A DNA stretch of 34,092 nucleotides from Verrucomicrobiales bacterium (lineage in GTDB: Bacteria; Verrucomicrobiota; Verrucomicrobiia; Verrucomicrobiales; V1-33): positions 1 to 34,092 of the forward strand of contig JAGNEJ010000053.1 of the NCBI GenBank assembly GCA_018003315.1. Direction: 5' to 3'. A program made the translations under genes and the position numbers. The notes under the pieces are model-generated. The model had not been told where the DNA came from. It saw only the letters and a list, made by a program, of their open reading frames with translations, and made no database searches. Positions 3,992-24,351 of the stretch are shown piece by piece. How positions within the stretch are numbered: position 1 is the first letter of the stretch; each line of letters begins with the position of its first letter.

Positions 3992-6346
3992 ATGCGATTG
4001 AGTTTGTTATTAGTGCCTGCGGTGGTTCCCGTTTTTTCTGTCTGGAGCCAGGAGAAGGTGACCTATCAGGATCACATCCGCCCACTGTTTGAGAACCGGT
4101 GCTTGAACTGCCACAACCCGGACAAAAAAAAGGGAGGACTGGACCTTTCCACCTACGGAAATGCCCTGGCAGGCGGGAGCGGCGGCGTTTGCGTGGAGGC
4201 GGGCGACGGCACCGGATCCAAAATGGTGCAATGCGTCAAATACGAAGCCGAGCCGTTCATGCCGCCAAAGAGCGACAAAATCCCGCAGGCGGAAATCGAC
4301 CTCATCATCAAGTGGATCAACGGTGGACTGCTGGAAACGTCGGGCAGCACTGCCAAGGTGAAGAAGAAGCAGAATTTCGAGATGGCAGCGGCGAATCCCA
4401 CCGCCAAGCCGGAGGGGCCGCCGCCCATGCCGGAACATTTGCTGCTGGACCCGGTGGTGGTGCCGCCGCGTCCGGATGTCATCAAGTCCTTCGCCCTCAA
4501 TCCCTGGGCGCCGCTGCTTGCCGTGGCCAGCGAAGGGCAGGTTTTGTTGTTTCATTCGGAGAACGGCGACCTGCTGGGAGTGCTGCCGTTTCCGGAAGGC
4601 AAACCCGAGTGCGTTGGATTCACCCGCAACGGATCCATCGTGTTTGCCGGAGGCGGCCGGGCCGGAAAAAGCGGCATGGTGGCGCTCTGGGAAGTCAAAA
4701 CCGGCAAGCGGATCGCCACGGTGGGCGAGGAATTCGACAGCGTGCTGGGGTGCGATGTCTCGCCGGACCACAAACTCGTCGCGCTGGGCGGCCCCGGAAA
4801 AAAAGTGCGCATCTACAGCACGGCCAGCGGTGAAAAACTCGTGGAGATCAAAAAGCACACCGACTGGGTGATGCATTGCGTGTTCAGCCCGGATGGCGTG
4901 CTGCTGGCCACGGGCGACCGCAACGGAGGCCTCTACGTCTGGGAAAGCGCCACCGGCAATGAGTTCTACACGCTCAAGGGCCATGAAAAGGCCATCAACA
5001 GCATCGCCTGGCGGCCGGATTCCAACCTGGTGGCCTCGGCGAGCGAGGACGGCACCGTTCGCTGGTGGGAAATGCAGGGCGGCACGCAGGTGAAAAGTTT
5101 CCCCGCCCATGGCGGCGCTGGAGTGCTCTCCGTGGGCTATGCGCTGGATGGCCGGCTCATCACTGGCGGACGCGACGGCAAAGTCCGCCTGTTCAAGCCT
5201 GACGGGACGCAAGCGCGCGAATTCGTGCCGGCGGATGGGTCAATGATTCTCTGCTGCGCCTACACTCCGGACGGAAAACGCTGCGCCACCGGTGCGGAAA
5301 ACGGACAGTTGAAGATCTGGGATTGCGAGAAGGAAGCCAAGGACTCCCCTCCCCTGGCCATTCTGGCCAATCCCCCTGCAATCGAAACCCGTCTGGCGCG
5401 CCTGAACCAGGAACTCGCCGGAAAGCAATCGCTCGTGCAGCAGGCCCAGGCAGCGGTGGCGGAAAAAGAAAAACAGGTGACCGCCGCCAAGACCGAAGCC
5501 GAAGCAGCGCAGGCCCGCATGGCCGCCATGCAGAAGGAGATGGAAAAAACCGCCCAGGTGCGGGATCAGCTTCAGTCCACCCTCACCAGACTAACAGAAA
5601 CCCGCACGAATTACACCGGGGAGCTTGAGGCGGTGAAAAAGCAACTGGCGACCCTGCAGCATCCGCCTGCCGCCCCGCCCACAACCGCTCCGGATCCCGG
5701 TGTCAGCGAACCGGTGCGCAATGCCATTCAGCAGGCAACCCAGGCTCAGACCGCGGCCAATGCGGTGGCCATTGCCGTTGCGCAGGCAAAACTCGACGAC
5801 CTGACGGAAATTCTGACCCGGCATGATGCGGAGATTGCCCAAATACAGCAGCGCATGCCCCAGGTGGAAGGCCAGGCTGCCGCTCTGGCGGGAAATGCCG
5901 CGGAGATTCAAAAAAGCCTGGAACCCAAAAAGCAGGCCATTGATGCCGCCATGAAGGTTTACACCGACGCGAAGGCCGGAGCCGATGCCGCTACGGCGCA
6001 GGTTGCCGGATTCCAGCCGGTGATCAACCGATGGCTGGCCGCCAAAGAAAACAAAACGGTGCTGTTCATCCGCTCGGAAGTGAATCAACTGAAGGAAACG
6101 GTGCAAGCCCTCAAGGAGGAAATTCCCGCACTCGAAACGGAAATCAGCAAACTCAACCAGCAGAAAGCCGCCAGCCCGCCTCCGCCCGCCGAACTGCTGC
6201 CCAAGCTGGACCGTCAGTTGGCCGCTGCCGTGAAGCGCCTCGGCGAAGTGAAGCAGGAACTGGCCGCCAGCGAACCGCAGATGAGTGACAAAACCAAACT
6301 GCTCGACGAAGCCCTGAAGAAATACCTCTCGCTGCTCCCGAAATGA
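3992..6346 (+). CDS. PSCyt1-type cytochrome c / WD40 propeller / coiled-coil protein
   Basis: A 784-residue exported protein. Residues 1-19 are a signal peptide. Residues 22-115 form a Planctomycete-cytochrome-C-type domain: haem motif CLNCH (Cys37, Cys40, His41) followed by the typical KKGGLDLSTYG and a likely distal Met90 in EPFMPPKSD. About residues 160-450 are WD40 repeats (HTDWVMHCVFSPDG, HEKAINSIAWRPDSN and LKIWD are clear blades). About residues 460-780 are an Ala/Gln/Lys/Glu-rich coiled coil broken by a Pro-rich linker near 565. The role is probably a periplasmic or cell-surface haem scaffold; no enzymatic domain is visible. PSCyt1 domains usually occur with PSD1 partners, and none is adjacent here. 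It is convergent with the dihydrolipoyl dehydrogenase gene, with 47 bases between them. Confidence 0.88.
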   Translation: MRLSLLLVPAVVPVFSVWSQEKVTYQDHIRPLFENRCLNCHNPDKKKGGLDLSTYGNALAGGSGGVCVEAGDGTGSKMVQCVKYEAEPFMPPKSDKIPQAEIDLIIKWINGGLLETSGSTAKVKKKQNFEMAAANPTAKPEGPPPMPEHLLLDPVVVPPRPDVIKSFALNPWAPLLAVASEGQVLLFHSENGDLLGVLPFPEGKPECVGFTRNGSIVFAGGGRAGKSGMVALWEVKTGKRIATVGEEFDSVLGCDVSPDHKLVALGGPGKKVRIYSTASGEKLVEIKKHTDWVMHCVFSPDGVLLATGDRNGGLYVWESATGNEFYTLKGHEKAINSIAWRPDSNLVASASEDGTVRWWEMQGGTQVKSFPAHGGAGVLSVGYALDGRLITGGRDGKVRLFKPDGTQAREFVPADGSMILCCAYTPDGKRCATGAENGQLKIWDCEKEAKDSPPLAILANPPAIETRLARLNQELAGKQSLVQQAQAAVAEKEKQVTAAKTEAEAAQARMAAMQKEMEKTAQVRDQLQSTLTRLTETRTNYTGELEAVKKQLATLQHPPAAPPTTAPDPGVSEPVRNAIQQATQAQTAANAVAIAVAQAKLDDLTEILTRHDAEIAQIQQRMPQVEGQAAALAGNAAEIQKSLEPKKQAIDAAMKVYTDAKAGADAATAQVAGFQPVINRWLAAKENKTVLFIRSEVNQLKETVQALKEEIPALETEISKLNQQKAASPPPPAELLPKLDRQLAAAVKRLGEVKQELAASEPQMSDKTKLLDEALKKYLSLLPK

Positions 6347-8240: not shown

Positions 8241-11200
8241 ATGAAAATGCTCTCCACGCTCCTCTCCACGGCTCTGGGTCTCGCCATGCACGCCACCGCA
8301 GCCGGCCCCGAGGCTCTGTTCAACGGTGCCTCACTCGACGGATGGTCGGGCAAACCGGAGCACTGGCGGGTGGAGGACGGTGCCATCACCGGCGAAATCA
8401 GGGATGGGGCCGCGCTCAACCACAACGAGTGGCTCTACTGGAAGGATCCGGTGCATGATTTCGAGCTGGAGCTGGAATACAAAATCACCGGTGGACCGAC
8501 GGCCAACAGCGGCATCCAGATCCGCTGCCAGCGCGATGCAAAGGGAGTGGCCAGCGGACTCCAGTGCGATCTGGACGACGGAGCGGTGTGGTTGGGGCGC
8601 ATTTACGATGAACATGGGCGTGCGCTGGTGATGGAGCGCGGCACGCGGGTGAGCCTTTCGCCAGATGGCAGGAAATGGGTGGATCCCTTCGCCGAAGCGA
8701 AGTCGTTCCTTGCAGTGCCGAAGGCAAACGACTGGAACCGCTACCGCATCCGCGCCGAAGGATCGCATGTGCAGGTCTGGGTGAATGGAGTGTTTTTTGG
8801 CGCACTCGATGATCACGATGCAAAGCAGGCGGAATGGAGCGGCCTGCTGGCCTTTCAACTGCACAGCGGCCGCGGCCCGGCGAAGGTGCAGTTCCGCAAC
8901 ATCCTGCTGCGCGATCTCGGCAAAACGGAAAAACCCGGCGCGGAAAACCAAGCCGTACCGGGCGACACGGAAAGCATTCGTCCTCTCGGCGACAACGGCC
9001 AGCCGTTGAACCTGAATTTTGAAACCGGCACGCTCCAGGACTGGACCGTGGAAGGCGCAGGCTGGACGCGCCAGCCGGTGAAGGGCGACACCGTGCAGGC
9101 GCGCGGTCGCGGGCAGAACAGCCGCCACACCGGCGACTGGTGGGTCGGCGGCTATGAATCCGGCGCGGGCGATGCCGGCACCGGAACGCTGACCTCCGCA
9201 CCGTTCAAGGTCACGCATCCCTGGGCCAGCTTTCTCGTCGGCGGCGGCAGCGAAGTGGCGGTGGTGCGCGTGGAAATCGTGAATGCAGAAACGGGAAAAA
9301 CCTTCCACACCGCCGCAGGCCGGGAGGAAGAGGACATGCGGCGCGAAGTGGTGGACATGCGCCCCATGCTTGGAAAGAAAGTGTTGGTGCGCCTGCTCGA
9401 CCGCGGCACACGGCCCTGGCATCACATCAACTACGACGACTTTGTCTTTCACCAGGAACCGCCGGTGGCCCTTGCCAGGGAAATGAGTCGGCAGATGCAA
9501 AGCCCGGTGCTCTGGCATCTGCATGACAACCCAGCCAAACCCACTGCGATCAAAAACGAAACGGCTCAGCGCACCGTAGCTGACATGAAGCTGACTGCCG
9601 GCTTCCAGGCGGAACTCATCGCCGCCGAACCTGACGTGACGCAGCCGATCGCCTTCTGCATCGATGAACGCGGCCGCCTCTGGGTGCTCGAAGCCCACAG
9701 CTACCCGAACAAGCAGCCGGAAGGCAAAGGCCGGGACCGCATCGTGATCTTCGCCGACAACGACGGCGACGGGGCCTTCGAAACGCGCACCGTTTTCACG
9801 GAAGGCATCAACCTCGGCAGTGGAATCGAGGTCGGATTCGGCGGCGTCTATGTCGGTGCGGCGCCGGAGCTGTTGTTTTTCCCTGACAAAAATCGCGACG
9901 ACAAGCCCGACGGCCCGCCGGAGGTTTTGCTGGACGGCTGGGGCTATCAGGACACGCACGAGACGCTGAACAGTTTCTCCTGGGGCCCGGACGGCTGGCT
10001 CTACGGCTGCCACGGCGTATTCACGCATTCGGAAGTCTGCAAACCAGGCACACCCAAGGAACAGCGCCAGGTCATTCATGCCGGGGTGTGGCGCTTTCAT
10101 CCGGTGCGGAAGGAATTCGAGGTTTTCGCCCACGGCGGCAGCAACCAGTGGGGGCTCGACTACAATGAAAACGGCCACTTCTTTATGACGCACTGCCGGA
10201 GTTTCTTCGGCGGCGGCGGCACCACGTATGTCATCCGCAATGGCCACTACTGGAATCAGGCCAACCACGGCTACGCGCCCTTCATCAGCAACGAAGGTCC
10301 GGACTTTGCGCCCAATCTGAAGAACTACCTGCCCGCCGCTGCGCTCTACGACAGCGGCGAAGGCGGCGCGGGAAAACCCGGCACCACCGCAGTCTTCGGC
10401 GGACACTCGCACGTCGGCACGATGATTTACCAGGGCAACAACTGGCCGGCTGCCTATCGCGGCCATCTGTTCACGCACAACCTCCACGGGCATCAGATCA
10501 ACCACCAGATCCTTGTGCCGCAAGGCAGCGGCTATGAAGCCATGCACGCAGGCTTCGACCTCGCCTGGACGCCCGACCCGCGCTACATGGCCGTGGACCT
10601 GCAAAGCGGTCCCGACGGTGCAGTTTACATCATCGACTGGTTCGACCAGCAGCACTGCCACACGCCCATCGAGGAAAAATGGGACCGCACCAACGGCCGC
10701 ATTTACCGCATCTCCTGGGCTGCAAACTACAAACCGGTGAAGGTGGACCTCTCCACCCTGCATGGCGGCGAACTCGCGGAGATGCAGCAGCACGAAGACG
10801 AATGGCACCGCCGCACGGCACGCCGTTTGCTGATGGAGCGCGCTGCCGAAGGTGGTGCGAAGGGGCGCGCCGCGGAAATCCTGAAGGAGTATGCCGCCAG
10901 CCCGGATGCAAGCCTGGCACTCCGTGGGCTGTGGACCTTGCATCAATGCGGGCAGATCGACGAAGCGATGCTCGCAGCTGCTTCGAGGCACTCCAGCGAT
11001 GCGGTTCGCTCCTGGGCCGTGCAACTCGGCACCGAACCGGCCGGTCCCAAACTCGGCGGTAAAGCCCTCGTGGAGGCCGCACAGGGCGATCCTTCCGCCA
11101 CTGTCCGGATGGCGCTCGCCGCCGCCCTCCCGCAACTTCCTTCTGAAATGCGCTGGGATGTCGCCGCCGCTCTGGCCACCCACCGTGAAGACAGGAGCGA

Positions 11201-12440
11201 CCGCTTCCAGCCGAAGATGATCTGGTTTGGACTCGCCACCGTCGCGAATTCCGACTGGCCACGCGCTCTGAAGATCGCCGCATCCACGCCGCTCGCCGAA
11301 CTCGCCGACAGCATCCGCTGGGCGGCCGCGCAGGACGCCGACGGACGCGACGCCCTTGCTGCCGCGGCTGCCGCATCAATGCCCGAGGATGCTGGACGCA
11401 CCGCCCGCATCGCGGCCTTTGCGTTGCGTGACGCCACTAACCTGACGCCCCCCGCCGGCATCGCGGCCGCCGTGGCCGCCATCAGCCACAGCAGCGATCC
11501 CGGCGTGATGGCCGCGGTGAACGAACTCGCGGCTGTCTTTGGCGACACCGGCGTCTTGGCGAAAATGCGTGCGGTGCTCGCTGACGCCGCCGCTCCGCTG
11601 TCGGATCGCAAGGCGGCGTTTTCCCTGCTCAAGCGCACCGGCGACGCCGAGGCACTGCCCGTTTTCGTCTCCCTGCTCAACAACCCGGTGTTTCGCTCCC
11701 AGGTCATACCCCTGCTCGGACGCAGTGACGACCCCGCCACCGCCGCGGCCTTGCTGCAGCTTTTTGGGAAGCTTTCCGCCGCAGATCAAACCGCCGCACT
11801 CGCCGCCCTCACCAGCCGCAAGCCGCTTGCGCTCACATTGGTGCAGGCAATGGCCGCCGGTTCCTTTGACAAGAAGCACATCACCGCGCTGCACCTCCGC
11901 CAGATGCGCAACCTCGGCAGCGATGAACTCAATGCACTGCTGGAAAAAACCTGGGGCAAGTTCAACCCGACGAACGAAAGCGCCCAAGCCACCATCAGGA
12001 AATTCAAGAAGCTTTACAACGAAGCCCCGCTCTGGGCCTACGACGCGGCGAAGGGCCGAGAGGTCTTCATCAAGGTCTGCTCCACCTGCCATGCCCACGG
12101 CGGCGGAGAAGCCAAAATTGGCCCCGATCTCGGCGGCACCTGGCGCAACGGTGTGGATTACTTCCTGGAAAGCATCGCCGACCCGAACGCGGTGATCGGC
12201 GAGGCTTTTCAGATGAACATTGTCACCAAGAAGGACGGCAATGTGGTCGCCGGTGCCCTGGAGAAACAATCCGCTGCCAGCATCACGGTGCGAACGCTCA
12301 CCGAGTCCGTCACCATTCCCACCGCTGACATCAAAGGCCGCGAGACCCTTCCGCAAAGCTTCATGCCGCCAGGCCTTCTGGAAGCCCTCAGCGAACGCGA
12401 AGCCATCGAACTGCTGAAGTTTCTGACCACCGGCCAGTAA
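8241..12440 (+). CDS. DUF1080 (3-keto-disaccharide hydrolase type) / PVC propeller dehydrogenase / HEAT / cytochrome c fusion
   Basis: A 1399-residue exported multidomain protein. Residues 1-21 are a signal peptide (start at ATG 8241; ATG 8247 is also possible). About 23-230 are DUF1080 (EALFNGASLDGW opening, NSGIQIRCQ, closing QFRNILLRDLG); characterised members cleave 3-keto-glycosides. About 255-410 are a beta-sandwich-like domain resembling the C-terminal module of GH32 enzymes. About 449-835 are the PVC-type membrane-bound dehydrogenase propeller (GFQAELIAAEPDVTQPIAF, FADNDGDG, SWGPDGWLYGCHG). About 850-1240 are HEAT-like helical repeats. From about 1265 there is a C-terminal cytochrome c of the PVC haem-binding type with CSTCH (Cys1280, Cys1283, His1284). 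Inference: a periplasmic enzyme that oxidises a glycoside and passes electrons to its own haem. No partner gene is adjacent. Confidence 0.9.
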   Translation: MKMLSTLLSTALGLAMHATAAGPEALFNGASLDGWSGKPEHWRVEDGAITGEIRDGAALNHNEWLYWKDPVHDFELELEYKITGGPTANSGIQIRCQRDAKGVASGLQCDLDDGAVWLGRIYDEHGRALVMERGTRVSLSPDGRKWVDPFAEAKSFLAVPKANDWNRYRIRAEGSHVQVWVNGVFFGALDDHDAKQAEWSGLLAFQLHSGRGPAKVQFRNILLRDLGKTEKPGAENQAVPGDTESIRPLGDNGQPLNLNFETGTLQDWTVEGAGWTRQPVKGDTVQARGRGQNSRHTGDWWVGGYESGAGDAGTGTLTSAPFKVTHPWASFLVGGGSEVAVVRVEIVNAETGKTFHTAAGREEEDMRREVVDMRPMLGKKVLVRLLDRGTRPWHHINYDDFVFHQEPPVALAREMSRQMQSPVLWHLHDNPAKPTAIKNETAQRTVADMKLTAGFQAELIAAEPDVTQPIAFCIDERGRLWVLEAHSYPNKQPEGKGRDRIVIFADNDGDGAFETRTVFTEGINLGSGIEVGFGGVYVGAAPELLFFPDKNRDDKPDGPPEVLLDGWGYQDTHETLNSFSWGPDGWLYGCHGVFTHSEVCKPGTPKEQRQVIHAGVWRFHPVRKEFEVFAHGGSNQWGLDYNENGHFFMTHCRSFFGGGGTTYVIRNGHYWNQANHGYAPFISNEGPDFAPNLKNYLPAAALYDSGEGGAGKPGTTAVFGGHSHVGTMIYQGNNWPAAYRGHLFTHNLHGHQINHQILVPQGSGYEAMHAGFDLAWTPDPRYMAVDLQSGPDGAVYIIDWFDQQHCHTPIEEKWDRTNGRIYRISWAANYKPVKVDLSTLHGGELAEMQQHEDEWHRRTARRLLMERAAEGGAKGRAAEILKEYAASPDASLALRGLWTLHQCGQIDEAMLAAASRHSSDAVRSWAVQLGTEPAGPKLGGKALVEAAQGDPSATVRMALAAALPQLPSEMRWDVAAALATHREDRSDRFQPKMIWFGLATVANSDWPRALKIAASTPLAELADSIRWAAAQDADGRDALAAAAAASMPEDAGRTARIAAFALRDATNLTPPAGIAAAVAAISHSSDPGVMAAVNELAAVFGDTGVLAKMRAVLADAAAPLSDRKAAFSLLKRTGDAEALPVFVSLLNNPVFRSQVIPLLGRSDDPATAAALLQLFGKLSAADQTAALAALTSRKPLALTLVQAMAAGSFDKKHITALHLRQMRNLGSDELNALLEKTWGKFNPTNESAQATIRKFKKLYNEAPLWAYDAAKGREVFIKVCSTCHAHGGGEAKIGPDLGGTWRNGVDYFLESIADPNAVIGEAFQMNIVTKKDGNVVAGALEKQSAASITVRTLTESVTIPTADIKGRETLPQSFMPPGLLEALSEREAIELLKFLTTGQ

Positions 12441-19563: not shown

Positions 19564-22500
19564 TTATTTGAGCGGGTGCTCCTTGAGGATTTCGTCCACG
19601 GTAAGAATCTGCAGGCGGGCACCGGAACGGCTGCGGATTTTTCCAACCTGTTCCGCAGTCACAGGGGCGGACTGGTTTCCGAAGCTGTTGCGGACATACG
19701 TCAGCACGGCCGCCAGTTCATCGTCCTTCAGCATGCCGCCAAACGGAGTCATCGGCACCGTGCCGTCATATTTTTTGCCGTGGAGTTCCATCGGTCCCAT
19801 CAGTCCGTAGAGCGCGACTTTGATGAGCCGGTCCGGATCGCCGTTCACCCAAGGGCTTTTGGCCAGTGAGGGGAAGGCAGGGTCCAGCCCCAGACCGTTG
19901 GGCTGATGGCAGGTGACGCAGTGGGCGTCCCGGAAATAAACCTCCTGACCGGCGAGATACTGTTTCTGGGCGGTGGCATCCAGATGGGCCGGTGCCGGCA
20001 GCATGGGGTGCTCCGCCTGCGCTTTTTCAGCAATGCCTGCCAGACGGTCTGCGGCCGTTTTGGCGGCAGCCTGGCTCCACCGGTCCAGCGGCTGGGCGGC
20101 GGCGACACTGACAATTTTCCGGGCGGAGGGAATGTCGTTCATCCACGATGCGGCGACGATCGCCTCCAGACGCACACGGCCATGGGGGTCGGCGGCGGCT
20201 TTTTCCAGCAGCGCGGCGTGATGCTGCACCCGGTGCATGTTGTAGCGCAGCACCCGCACCGCGGCGGCGCGGGCATAAAAATCGGGCGACTGCAAAAGCT
20301 GCCGCAGAAGCGCGTCATCCGCCTGATTGAGCCCCCAGGTGACCCAGAGTGCCTCCAGCTTCGGATGTTCATCCTTCTGCTGCGCCGCCCACGCCTTGAC
20401 AGCAGACAGCACTTCGGAAACCGGGCGGCTGCGCAGTTCACGGCGGGTGCGGTAGCGGGTTCGATATTCAGGCTGTTTCAGATTTTCCAACAGTGCGGCA
20501 ATGGGCGCTCCGGCCACCGGTGCTGGCTTCACGAGCGGCCGACTCGGATAGGTGATGCGGTAAATGCGCCCGTGGACGTGGTCGCGCAGGGGATCGCGGG
20601 CGTTGTGCTGCATGTGGCCGATGAGGACATTGTGCCAGTCGATGACGTAGAGCGAACCGTCCGGGGCGAATTCGAGATCCACCGGGCGGAAATTTCCATC
20701 GCTGCTTTTGAGCAAATCCTGACGGAAGGCGGTTTTCCAACCGGTGCCCTCGTCCTGAAGGCTGTGCTGCTTGATTCCCAGGAAGCCGATGGTGTTGCAG
20801 AGCAGGATGTCTCCTTGAACCTCATCGGGGAAATGGCGGCTGGAAATGATTTCCAAGCCGCTGGTGGGGCGGACCGCCTGGCCTTTTGGGATGAGGTCGG
20901 GTCCGGGATTGGTCTTCGACCCAAACGTCGGCTTGACCGAGGCCGGCAGCATCCAGTTCATGGGCGGGCCGGAGGTGTGGATGAGGAAATCCTGCCCCCA
21001 GTTGTCGAAGGCAACGCCCCAGGGATTCGGAATCGACATCTGCACGGTCCGCTCCAGCATTCCCCGCTGTGGACTGTAGCGGAAAAAGCCGCCGTCCACG
21101 CAGCGCACCGGGCCGTAGGGGGTTTCCACGTTGCTGTGCAGGAAAACCCCCTCGCACATCATGAAGGCACCGGACGGGTCCGCGCAAAACGCACTGATGG
21201 CATGGTGGGTGTCGTGGGTGTCGAACCCGCCGAGGATGATTTCCCGGCTGTCGGCATGGTCATCGCCGTTGGTGTCACGCAGCAGCACCAGGTTCGGTTC
21301 CTGGGTCACATACACCCCCTCAGGCGCAAATTCGAAGCCAATGGGCATGTGAAGGCGGTCGGCAAAAACCGTCTCCTTGTCGGCCCTGCCGTCGCCGTTC
21401 GTGTCCTCGTAAATGAGCAGCTTGTCGTTAGGCAGGGCATCGCCGGGGCGGTAGTGCGGATACGTCGGCATGACGCCCACCCAAAGCCGCCCCTTGTTGT
21501 CGAAGCTCATCTGCATTGGATTGGCCAGATTAGGAAACTCCTTTTCGCTGGCGAACATCTCGATTTTATACCCGTCGGGAACCGTCAGGGTCCTCAGCGC
21601 ATCCTGACCGTATTTGTATTCCGGTTTGCCGTTTTTGGAATTGTTCGGGGAATAGTTGGTGGGCACCGGAGGCAGGGCGTGAGTCTTCGAATCGTCCACC
21701 TTGAGATCCTTCTTTTTTCCAGAGGCAACGGCATGGATCAGCTGATCCCGCAGGGCCATCAATTCGCGGGACTTCAGCACTTCGTCAGGATAGTTCTGCG
21801 GCCCGAAGGGATCATAGCGCTGGCCGTGGGTGTGGACGCCGTTGAGGAGGTTGTAGTCGGTGTTCCAAAACCAGTCTTTTTGCTTCACGGCACCGTGCAC
21901 CAGTTTGGGGTCGGCCTGCGAATCGCGGGTGTGCCGGCCATAGATTCCATCGGCCAGAACCACGGCCAGATCGCCGTAGCCCGCCTCAGTAGGCATGAAT
22001 CCATTCGCCGTGAACGGCACTTTTGCCACGGCATAGAGCTTTTTGGTGTGGGTGAAAAAATCAATGAAGGTCAGTCCGTGCTTTTTGGCCACCTTCTCCA
22101 CCGCCGCACTGTAGAGCGTCAGGCTTTCGTTTTCCTTTTTGCCGTCGGGCAGGTCGCGTTTGGCGGAAAGGTCCTCGTAGGCAATCGGCGAAACCAGAAC
22201 GATCCGCGGAGCCGCTGTACCGTTGTAGGCTTTGCCCAGCGTGTGCTGCACCCAGGCATCGAGTTCTGCTTCAAAGTTTCCCACTTTCGCCGGACCATCA
22301 AATGATTCGTTGTAGCCGAAGAAGGCGACGATGGTGTCGGCCTTCAGGTGAGTGAGCCACTGGTCGGGCGTCGGGAAAAATCCCTTGCCGTGATGCGTCT
22401 TCAGTTCCGGATGAAATTGCTCCGCGCCGGGAAACGCCCACTGCGAAGCGCGCGCCGGATGCGGTCGGAAGCCCGGCGTGTCCCCCACATGTCCCATGTT

Positions 22501-22773
22501 CCGCACCATCAGATCCCGTGCCGGAAAACGCAGGTGCAGTTCGGTTTCCAGGCGGCTGTAGTAAACATCCCGCTCCGCCAACCCGTTGCCAAGGAATACG
22601 ATGCGCTCCCCCTGCTGGGGTTCGGCAGCCTGCTGCGGGCGAGCGGAGGTGGCAGCCGGAGGATCGGCATCCGGCGCATGGGGCGCATTCTTTGGAGCAG
22701 CGCTAACGGCAGGCACCAGCAGACCGGTCAGGGCCAGAAGCGCGGGAGAATGGAAGCGGAAAATGGATCGCAT
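19564..22773 (-). CDS. SGNH-like / PVC propeller / HEAT / cytochrome c fusion protein
   Basis: A 1069-residue exported protein. It has a signal peptide (residues 1-25), a Pro/Ala linker, then an SGNH-hydrolase-like domain (about 57-280) with block I FLGNGLAERD, FFGYNESFDG as the block III equivalent, and NGFMPTEAGY where block V normally carries the catalytic His. About 390-760 are the PVC dehydrogenase propeller (GYKIEMFASEKEFPNLANP, YEDTNGDGRAD, DTNGDDHAD, NPWGVAFDNWGQDF). About 770-930 are HEAT repeats. A cytochrome c domain follows with HCVTCHQPNG (Cys952, Cys955, His956) and a likely Met ligand in VPMTPFGGM. It probably acts in the periplasm in haem-linked oxidation. It lies 47 bases downstream of the sulfatase gene, on the same strand, as the likely last operon gene. 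Confidence 0.9.
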   Translation of the reverse strand: MRSIFRFHSPALLALTGLLVPAVSAAPKNAPHAPDADPPAATSARPQQAAEPQQGERIVFLGNGLAERDVYYSRLETELHLRFPARDLMVRNMGHVGDTPGFRPHPARASQWAFPGAEQFHPELKTHHGKGFFPTPDQWLTHLKADTIVAFFGYNESFDGPAKVGNFEAELDAWVQHTLGKAYNGTAAPRIVLVSPIAYEDLSAKRDLPDGKKENESLTLYSAAVEKVAKKHGLTFIDFFTHTKKLYAVAKVPFTANGFMPTEAGYGDLAVVLADGIYGRHTRDSQADPKLVHGAVKQKDWFWNTDYNLLNGVHTHGQRYDPFGPQNYPDEVLKSRELMALRDQLIHAVASGKKKDLKVDDSKTHALPPVPTNYSPNNSKNGKPEYKYGQDALRTLTVPDGYKIEMFASEKEFPNLANPMQMSFDNKGRLWVGVMPTYPHYRPGDALPNDKLLIYEDTNGDGRADKETVFADRLHMPIGFEFAPEGVYVTQEPNLVLLRDTNGDDHADSREIILGGFDTHDTHHAISAFCADPSGAFMMCEGVFLHSNVETPYGPVRCVDGGFFRYSPQRGMLERTVQMSIPNPWGVAFDNWGQDFLIHTSGPPMNWMLPASVKPTFGSKTNPGPDLIPKGQAVRPTSGLEIISSRHFPDEVQGDILLCNTIGFLGIKQHSLQDEGTGWKTAFRQDLLKSSDGNFRPVDLEFAPDGSLYVIDWHNVLIGHMQHNARDPLRDHVHGRIYRITYPSRPLVKPAPVAGAPIAALLENLKQPEYRTRYRTRRELRSRPVSEVLSAVKAWAAQQKDEHPKLEALWVTWGLNQADDALLRQLLQSPDFYARAAAVRVLRYNMHRVQHHAALLEKAAADPHGRVRLEAIVAASWMNDIPSARKIVSVAAAQPLDRWSQAAAKTAADRLAGIAEKAQAEHPMLPAPAHLDATAQKQYLAGQEVYFRDAHCVTCHQPNGLGLDPAFPSLAKSPWVNGDPDRLIKVALYGLMGPMELHGKKYDGTVPMTPFGGMLKDDELAAVLTYVRNSFGNQSAPVTAEQVGKIRSRSGARLQILTVDEILKEHPLK

Positions 22774-22820: not shown

Positions 22821-24299
22821 TCAAGCGGGGTTTGCAGCGCCCACGCGGCGGGGTTTCACCTGAGGGTGCCTGTTGCGATTCTGCGGCTTGTCCGCGGGCG
22901 GAATCCACGCACCGGTGCGCGGCGCATCCACTCGCAGCGGGGCGGCATCGCCAAAGGTCCGGCGTTGCGCCTCCATCAGCGCAGTGAGTTCCGTCAAGGT
23001 GGCGCTGCGGGCGGGATCGGCGGACAGGTCCTTTGTTTCCTCCGGGTCTGCTTGGAGGTCGAACAGCAGGGTGCGGTCAGCAATCGGACAGCGGATGAGT
23101 TTCCACCGGTCATTGCGCACCGCACGCTGCACATGGCGGTAGGCGGTAAAAATATTCGCCCTTCCCTGCTGGGCTGGATCCTGCAGCACCGCGGAAAATT
23201 CCACGCCCTCACTCTCGCGGGGAGGCGTCACTCCACACCATTTTCCCAGCGTGGGCAGCACATCAAAAAGATAGCACATGGCCTCCGTCCGCCGATCACC
23301 CGGCAGCCCCGGCACCTGAATCACCAGCGGCACCCGCACGGAGTGTTCATAGACGCTCTGTTTGCCAATGAGCCCATGACTCCCGCGGGCCACTCCGGAA
23401 TCCGCCGCGAAGACCACAATGGTGTTCTGCGCATGGGGTGACGCTGCCAGGGCGTCGAGCACCCGGCCGATTTCCCCATCGAGATAGGAAATGTAGCGGT
23501 AATAGTCCGCATTCATCGCGCGAATTTGCTGCGGCTCTCTCGGCCAGGGGAGCAGGGTTTCGTCCCGCACGGTCATCTCACCGTTGTCGAAGGGATGCAG
23601 CGGCAGAAAATTTTTCGGCAACGGCATGTCATCCGCCGCATAATGGATCGGAAACCCCTCCGGAACAATGTGCGGGTCATGGGGAGCATCGAACGCCACA
23701 TAGCAAAAGAACGGCGCTTCCCCAGGAGTCTGCAGAAACCGGACGGCCTCGTCGGCGAACACCGCACAGGCATGCTTTTGCGAGGGCTGAGGCTGAGTCA
23801 GCCTGCCGTCCTTGAGATCACTGAGCGGGGCGTGCAGGGGATCGTTGGCCATGCCTCCGGAAAAAACGCTCCGCGCCTGCTGGAACACTTTGGAAATGGA
23901 GGCCGGACCGTTGTGCCACTTGCCCGTGACAAACGTCCGGTAGCCGGCCTGGGCAAAGGCCTCCGGCCAGGTGGCGTCCCGCTGCAGTTTCTCATCGACA
24001 TGAAACAGGCTTCTGCCTGACAGCAGCATCGCCCGCGACGGCATGCAGGTGGCTCCGTGAAATCCACCCTGCATGAAGGCCCGTGAGAAAGAAATGCCGC
24101 TTTTGACGAGCCGATCCAGACTGGGCGTCTTGATGACGTGATTTCCCAGCGCTGCGATGGTGTCCGCCCGCTGGTCGTCAGCAAAGAGGAAAAGCACATT
24201 CCATTTTCGGGGCGAATCGGTTCCGGAAGCACCAGCGACGCCTGCCACTAACAGGGTCAGCAGCAGCAGAAATCGGCAGGACATTTTGATGACACGCAT
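22821..24299 (-). CDS. Exported Cys-type sulfatase
   Basis: A 492-residue sulfatase (alkaline phosphatase superfamily) that would remove sulfate esters from polysaccharides or other substrates outside the cytoplasm. The signal peptide is MRVIKMSCRFLLLLTLLVAG. The metal-binding DD (Asp41, Asp42) in FLFADDQRADT, the formylglycine motif CMPSR (Cys85, with TCMPSRAMLLSGR), the catalytic HD in DAPHDPHIVPEG, and the second metal site in FAADSG...HGLIGKQSVYEHSVRVP are all present. The Cys must be oxidised by FGE or anSME, neither of which is in the window. ATG 24299 was chosen over a TTG six bases upstream; ATG 24284 is also possible. It sits between a small HExxH protein and the SGNH/cytochrome gene in one run. 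SulfAtlas-type subfamily cannot be assigned by eye. Confidence 0.93.
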   Translation of the reverse strand: MRVIKMSCRFLLLLTLLVAGVAGASGTDSPRKWNVLFLFADDQRADTIAALGNHVIKTPSLDRLVKSGISFSRAFMQGGFHGATCMPSRAMLLSGRSLFHVDEKLQRDATWPEAFAQAGYRTFVTGKWHNGPASISKVFQQARSVFSGGMANDPLHAPLSDLKDGRLTQPQPSQKHACAVFADEAVRFLQTPGEAPFFCYVAFDAPHDPHIVPEGFPIHYAADDMPLPKNFLPLHPFDNGEMTVRDETLLPWPREPQQIRAMNADYYRYISYLDGEIGRVLDALAASPHAQNTIVVFAADSGVARGSHGLIGKQSVYEHSVRVPLVIQVPGLPGDRRTEAMCYLFDVLPTLGKWCGVTPPRESEGVEFSAVLQDPAQQGRANIFTAYRHVQRAVRNDRWKLIRCPIADRTLLFDLQADPEETKDLSADPARSATLTELTALMEAQRRTFGDAAPLRVDAPRTGAWIPPADKPQNRNRHPQVKPRRVGAANPA

Positions 24300-24351
24300 G
24301 TTCAATTCTTTGCTGTCGCAGGGAAAATCTCATGCGGTTCCTTCTCCCGCA

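Follow-up and report, generated by a model that had tools for sequence, protein, structure and literature searches.

Can one polypeptide both oxidise a glycoside and cut the product? The question is raised by a gene on contig JAGNEJ010000053.1 of a Verrucomicrobiales bacterium (assembly GCA_018003315.1, positions 1 to 34,092, the whole stretch analysed and here called the window), which encodes on a single chain a DUF1080 domain, a beta-sandwich, a propeller, a HEAT-repeat region and a haem-binding cytochrome c domain. The original prediction for this locus had held that the propeller and cytochrome half may make a 3-keto sugar which the DUF1080 half then cleaves. We tentatively favour a reading of this kind: a secreted carbohydrate oxidoreductase, linked to haem, that carries a domain of its own for processing glycosides, oxidising first and cleaving second. 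In this scheme the propeller would oxidise one hydroxyl group of a glycoside, most probably the one at C3, since a 3-keto-glycoside is what DUF1080 enzymes require. Electrons would go to the C-terminal c-type haem and from there into the respiratory chain; the protein's own DUF1080 domain would cut the oxidised glycoside, with the carbohydrate held by the beta-sandwich. We infer both the C3 regiochemistry and channelling between the domains; a single-chain model of the DUF1080, sandwich and propeller regions (812 residues, from a single sequence) had a predicted local distance difference test score (pLDDT) of 33, too low to use. In the known cases of oxidation-dependent glycan cleavage, the dehydrogenase and the cleaving enzyme are separate proteins. 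If the proposal is true, a single haem-linked protein would tie sugar cleavage directly to respiration, and a large, little-characterised family, abundant in the phylum, would gain its first secure function.

The single open reading frame was found exactly as claimed, and its DUF1080, propeller, HEAT and cytochrome c (CSTCH) parts are confirmed by Pfam and NCBIfam matches. The N-terminal domain matches PF06439 (3keto-disac_hyd) with an E-value of 3.6e-38 and 131.9 bits, against a curated cut-off of 26.8. The propeller matches both PF23500 (DUF7133; residues 444-825, E 4.9e-70), which carries no assigned function, and TIGR02604 (residues 454-825, E 2.3e-108, 362.8 bits against a cut-off of 122.2), which is named for haem-binding proteins. 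HEAT_2 is matched at residues 1123-1190 (E 1.9e-07) and the TIGR02603 haem-binding profile at the C-terminus (E 6.4e-29, 100.6 bits against a cut-off of 68.15). In having TIGR02604, TIGR02603 and the CSTCH motif the protein conforms, at the level of sequence, to the PVC-type haem-binding CxxCH proteins, and its haem site is intact. The domain originally described as jelly-roll-like holds up as a beta-sandwich whose homologue lies ahead of the catalytic region in a GH32 enzyme (L197) of the same genome, without a Pfam match or a significant PDB relative of its own; its attachment to the GH32 enzyme makes a carbohydrate-related role likely.

Seven further genomes (G002, G008, G011, G001, G246, G283 and G229) have orthologues with every domain in place, and G010 has a split copy; identities are about 50-70%. 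An assembly artefact is excluded as the source of the fusion, since the domain order is identical in those seven genomes and is cut by a contig break in an eighth. The G172 orthologue has DUF1080, propeller and HEAT regions without the sandwich, on a contig that stops before the haem domain. Among the orthologues, identity is highest in the propeller (71-86%), followed by DUF1080 (49-72%, and 39% in G229), the haem domain (52-76%) and the sandwich (38-70%), and the HEAT region is the least conserved large domain (43-58%). A scan of genome contigs returned a single relative, and none was found in viral contigs.

Fusions of this kind extend well beyond the orthologues. The window genome contains 16 DUF1080 domains, three of them in propeller-haem chains (C129, C76 and C29), together with about 20 propellers above the TIGR02604 cut-off, and the DUF1080 subtype of the window protein was found at E <= 1e-30 in 62 of 387 genomes of the phylum. 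Among 40 long-frame DUF1080 examples sampled across the phylum, a choice that biases towards fusions, 32 have the haem domain (called by Pfam in L164), with DUF1080 placed first in 29 and after the haem in three; the others comprise seven HEAT-DUF1080 frames without haem (HEAT confirmed by Pfam in three) and one GH32 fusion. In the divergent fusions examined, the middle region is TIGR02604-like (E 9e-22 to 2e-15). Each main fusion class requires two to five label changes on the DUF1080 tree, and propellers bearing DUF1080 sit in three separate parts of a quickly built propeller tree, in which short flanks underlie some of the 'no DUF' labels. In the G229 protein the sandwich, propeller, HEAT and haem regions fall in the window clade and DUF1080 falls in a C76-type clade (support 100/90), which suggests that one DUF1080 was exchanged here for another. 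From these sequences, the DUF1080-propeller-haem fusion is common in the phylum and has arisen several times, and this repeated evolution of the pairing suggests one oxidise-then-cut enzyme. A literature search, which left domain-architecture databases outside its range, found no description of the fusion.

Biochemical precedent for DUF1080 comes mainly from two proteins, BT2157, a 3-ketotrehalose hydrolase, and CCNA_01705 of Caulobacter, proposed from mutant fitness to be a 3'-ketolactose hydrolase alongside LacABC (PMC9007349); a third, THTE_1561, is a reported endo-xanthanase/lichenase (PMC10881899). The closest solved relative of the window domain is 4jqt, a putative glycosyl hydrolase (E 1e-19) with the same polar residues, but 4jqt has two DUF1080 domains and neither the propeller nor the haem of the window protein. 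The pocket-type polar residues N89, R95, Q108, D110, E124, R127, Q206 and H208 are invariant in the orthologues, and both the NSG motif and Q206/H208 are retained. We presume that the DUF1080 domain is catalytic.

The Caulobacter system resembles our proposal in that periplasmic oxidation, by a membrane-bound dehydrogenase, precedes the proposed DUF1080 cleavage, but it consists of separate proteins with an unrelated dehydrogenase (PMC9007349), whereas the window protein is one chain with a propeller. The LacC-type subunit (PF13618) of that periplasmic 3-dehydrogenase was found nowhere in the window genome by a search in which the Caulobacter control was positive. Another parallel lies in pairs of GFO/IDH and DUF1080 genes, in which DUF1080 likewise adjoins an oxidoreductase, although as two genes and not as a fused, haem-linked propeller. 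A same-strand GFO/IDH gene lies within 80 bp of 14 of the 47 unfused DUF1080 genes, many of these neighbours carrying a twin-arginine translocation (Tat) motif such as SRRQFL, whereas a GFO/IDH gene is found within 1.5 kb of only 2 of 44 fused genes (Fisher p 0.0019, shared ancestry aside). This pattern fits a propeller that takes the place of the dehydrogenase with which DUF1080 is usually paired. One exception is C29, where the fused gene is followed on its own strand by two Tat-signal GFO/IDH genes; this cluster (L077) also includes a PQQ-like repeat protein and a GH43-like gene, both assigned by eye. Seven long, haem-less frames with a C-terminal DUF1080 (L144, L145, L146, L148, L149, L174 and L181, five of them from family f40, and with HEAT repeats in the three checked) each lie directly beside a GFO/IDH gene. 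The argument from fusion has thus gained from the repeated pairing, its occurrence in both orders, the like-for-like exchange of DUF1080 and the neighbour pattern, and it does not reach to the oxidation of a sugar or to position C3. Coupling of oxidation and cleavage is plausible, and its support has grown, chiefly through the recurrence of the fusion and the substitution of the partner.

A propeller model built from three sequences had moderate confidence (pLDDT 56), with high root-mean-square deviations in its Foldseek alignments, and its best VIA matches were an AA12 pyranose dehydrogenase (Z 22.5) and soluble glucose dehydrogenase (Z 20.5), with HHIP at about 20 and generic propellers at about 18. 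HHIP has the sugar dehydrogenase fold without being a sugar dehydrogenase. On this model the propeller has the fold of the pyrroloquinoline quinone (PQQ) sugar dehydrogenases (PF07995/AA12), and is kin in fold to the AA12 enzymes 6i1q and 6jt5 and to the soluble glucose dehydrogenase 1qbi. Among solved structures, E. coli YliI comes nearest to it in sequence (E 0.025); one paralogue matches PF07995 (GSDH) at E 1.6e-9, and a Pfam search found no PF07995 match in the window protein. It differs from the AA12 and soluble glucose dehydrogenases in its HEAT repeats and c-type haem, although AA12 enzymes can carry a haem domain, and in the cofactor site.

That site is the first of several points that weigh against an oxidise-then-cleave enzyme. 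Using PQQ and calcium ligand positions which we take to be those of the solved enzyme 1CQ1, and an alignment whose first half is weak, the PQQ contacts (Arg, Lys, Arg-x-Arg and Gly-Pro) are replaced in all orthologues, by S634, H749/H751, M783-V785 and C652-R653: the family RNPQG becomes SNQWG, the GP calcium site becomes CR, the lysine region becomes NLHGH and Arg-x-Arg is lost. The position of the His base is kept, H573 (in DTHE) aligning with the catalytic His. The synthesis gene pqqC was found in none of the 13 family genomes, the window genome included, while it occurs elsewhere in the phylum, and the cell might take up PQQ. These sequences argue against PQQ being bound as in soluble glucose dehydrogenase. 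In the phrase 'haem-linked dehydrogenase' of the original prediction, then, the haem and the fold (the latter in a model) stand; with most PQQ-binding residues replaced and pqqC missing, that the propeller is a dehydrogenase is something we infer. The neighbour contrast loses significance once shared ancestry is allowed for, in an underpowered comparison with four independent pairs on well-supported branches, and the 34 GFO/IDH proteins of the window genome could themselves make 3-keto sugars. The DUF1080 domain departs from its canonical subtype at Q108/D110, where the canonical residues are E/Q, and several N-terminal partners of the propeller in other proteins (GDSL, ceramidase, FG-GAP and lectin-like domains) have no 3-keto link.

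Seven histidines are invariant in the propeller region (H573, H722, H724, H746, H749, H751 and H807), and we speculate that they could form a metal site. A bolder form of the proposal, in which an oxidise-then-cleave glycosidase is complete in itself, strikes us as unlikely. Its propeller would form 3-keto-glycosides with none of nicotinamide adenine dinucleotide (NAD), flavin adenine dinucleotide (FAD) or PQQ, would rely on a cofactor not yet recognised, perhaps a metal bound in the His-rich region, and would pass electrons directly to the built-in haem.

The partners are many. The same propeller-HEAT-haem chassis bears FG-GAP propellers, ThuA (another sugar-pathway domain, at the N- or C-terminus), GDSL, ceramidase, Laminin_G, NPCBM, F5/8C and lectin-like domains, and one chain (L176) combines ThuA, DUF1080, propeller, Laminin_G and haem. 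A paralogue in the window genome (L094, on C53) joins the same propeller type to plastocyanin-like, GDSL and F5/8C domains with no haem domain detected, a possible swap of electron carrier which suggests that the chassis needs one. In the window itself, a second propeller-HEAT-cytochrome protein (19564-22773, minus strand) has an N-terminal GDSL-type domain and adjoins a sulfatase gene (22821-24305). The variety of partners weakens any 3-keto specificity of the chassis, supports a general extracytoplasmic oxidoreductase role, and means that DUF1080 might only bind sugar. As a non-cleaving, concanavalin- or CBM66-like module, DUF1080 would dock the haem-linked dehydrogenase on polysaccharide, as many chassis partners (Laminin_G, NPCBM, F5/8C, FG-GAP) are binding modules, and in a planctomycete study CBM66 and DUF1080 calls overlap on one domain (PMC5673643). 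However, ThuA, GDSL and ceramidase have enzyme folds, in some chains DUF1080 coexists with a Laminin_G domain located elsewhere in the sequence, the polar pocket-type residues are invariant, and in G229 DUF1080 was replaced by another DUF1080 and not by some other lectin. We regard pure binding as doubtful, with a chance that deserves to be kept in mind.

Distinctly less probable is the reverse order, in which DUF1080 would first cut as a conventional hydrolase of glucanase-like type and the freed reducing sugar would then be oxidised at C1 by the propeller. AA12 and soluble glucose dehydrogenases, the closest structures to the propeller model, do oxidise at C1, and the activity reported for THTE_1561 would suit such a hydrolase; against this, the better-known DUF1080 enzymes act on 3-keto-glycosides and the window propeller has lost its PQQ ligands.

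That the propeller is itself a glycosidase has been claimed for Lac161_ORF7 (AGW45552), described as a TIGR02604 propeller with HEAT repeats and TIGR02603 haem, as in the window protein, but without DUF1080 (PMC5342196). Produced in BL21(DE3)pLysS induced with isopropyl thiogalactoside (IPTG), this claimed beta-galactosidase was reported to free glucose from lactose with a Michaelis constant of 1.8 mM, and its cosmid, on which ORF10 is another reported beta-galactosidase, complements a Lac- Sinorhizobium meliloti strain (PMC5342196). A hydrolase would leave the haem unexplained. BL21(DE3)pLysS is a lacZ+ host, and because it was IPTG-induced and the Michaelis constant matches that of E. coli LacZ, carry-over of LacZ is possible and must be excluded before the lactose claim is used; we think it very improbable that the propeller is a glycosidase. 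Domain shuffling without functional coupling, by which the chassis gathers many secreted domains, suits the diversity of partners but is hardly credible given that fusion to DUF1080 has recurred with either order of domains and been retained over long periods, and that ThuA likewise recurs.

Table 1. Features of the DUF1080-propeller-haem gene, in window coordinates.
Feature	Residues	Position	Strand	Basis
Whole fused gene	1399 in total	8241..12440	+	ATG start; 4.2-kb open reading frame
Signal peptide-like N-terminal segment, MKMLSTLLSTALGLAMHATAAG	1-21	8241..8303	+	Sequence, hydrophobic window
DUF1080/PF06439 3-keto-disaccharide hydrolase domain, 4jqt-like subfamily	23-223	8307..8909	+	Profile match
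Beta-sandwich domain	255-405	9003..9455	+	Homologous domain on GH32 enzyme, same genome
TIGR02604/DUF7133 six-bladed-type propeller	441-828	9561..10724	+	Profile matches
HEAT-repeat region	829-1262	10725..12026	+	HEAT_2 match
TIGR02603 haem-binding (cytochrome c) domain	1268-1397	12042..12431	+	Profile; PDB relative 7zs0, diheme protein
CxxCH haem attachment motif CSTCH	1280-1284	12078..12092	+	Cys/Cys/His invariant in orthologues
Probable axial methionine in SFMPPGLL	1375	12363..12365	+	Invariant in orthologues reaching it; axial role presumed

The gene stands alone, its neighbours encoding a dihydrolipoyl dehydrogenase and a tRNA-dihydrouridine synthase. No conserved flanking genes were found among the orthologue neighbourhoods compared, so operon context is uninformative here. 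Elsewhere in the window (3992-6346, plus strand), a 784-residue protein combines WD40 repeats, a planctomycete-type cytochrome (PSCyt1) and a coiled coil.

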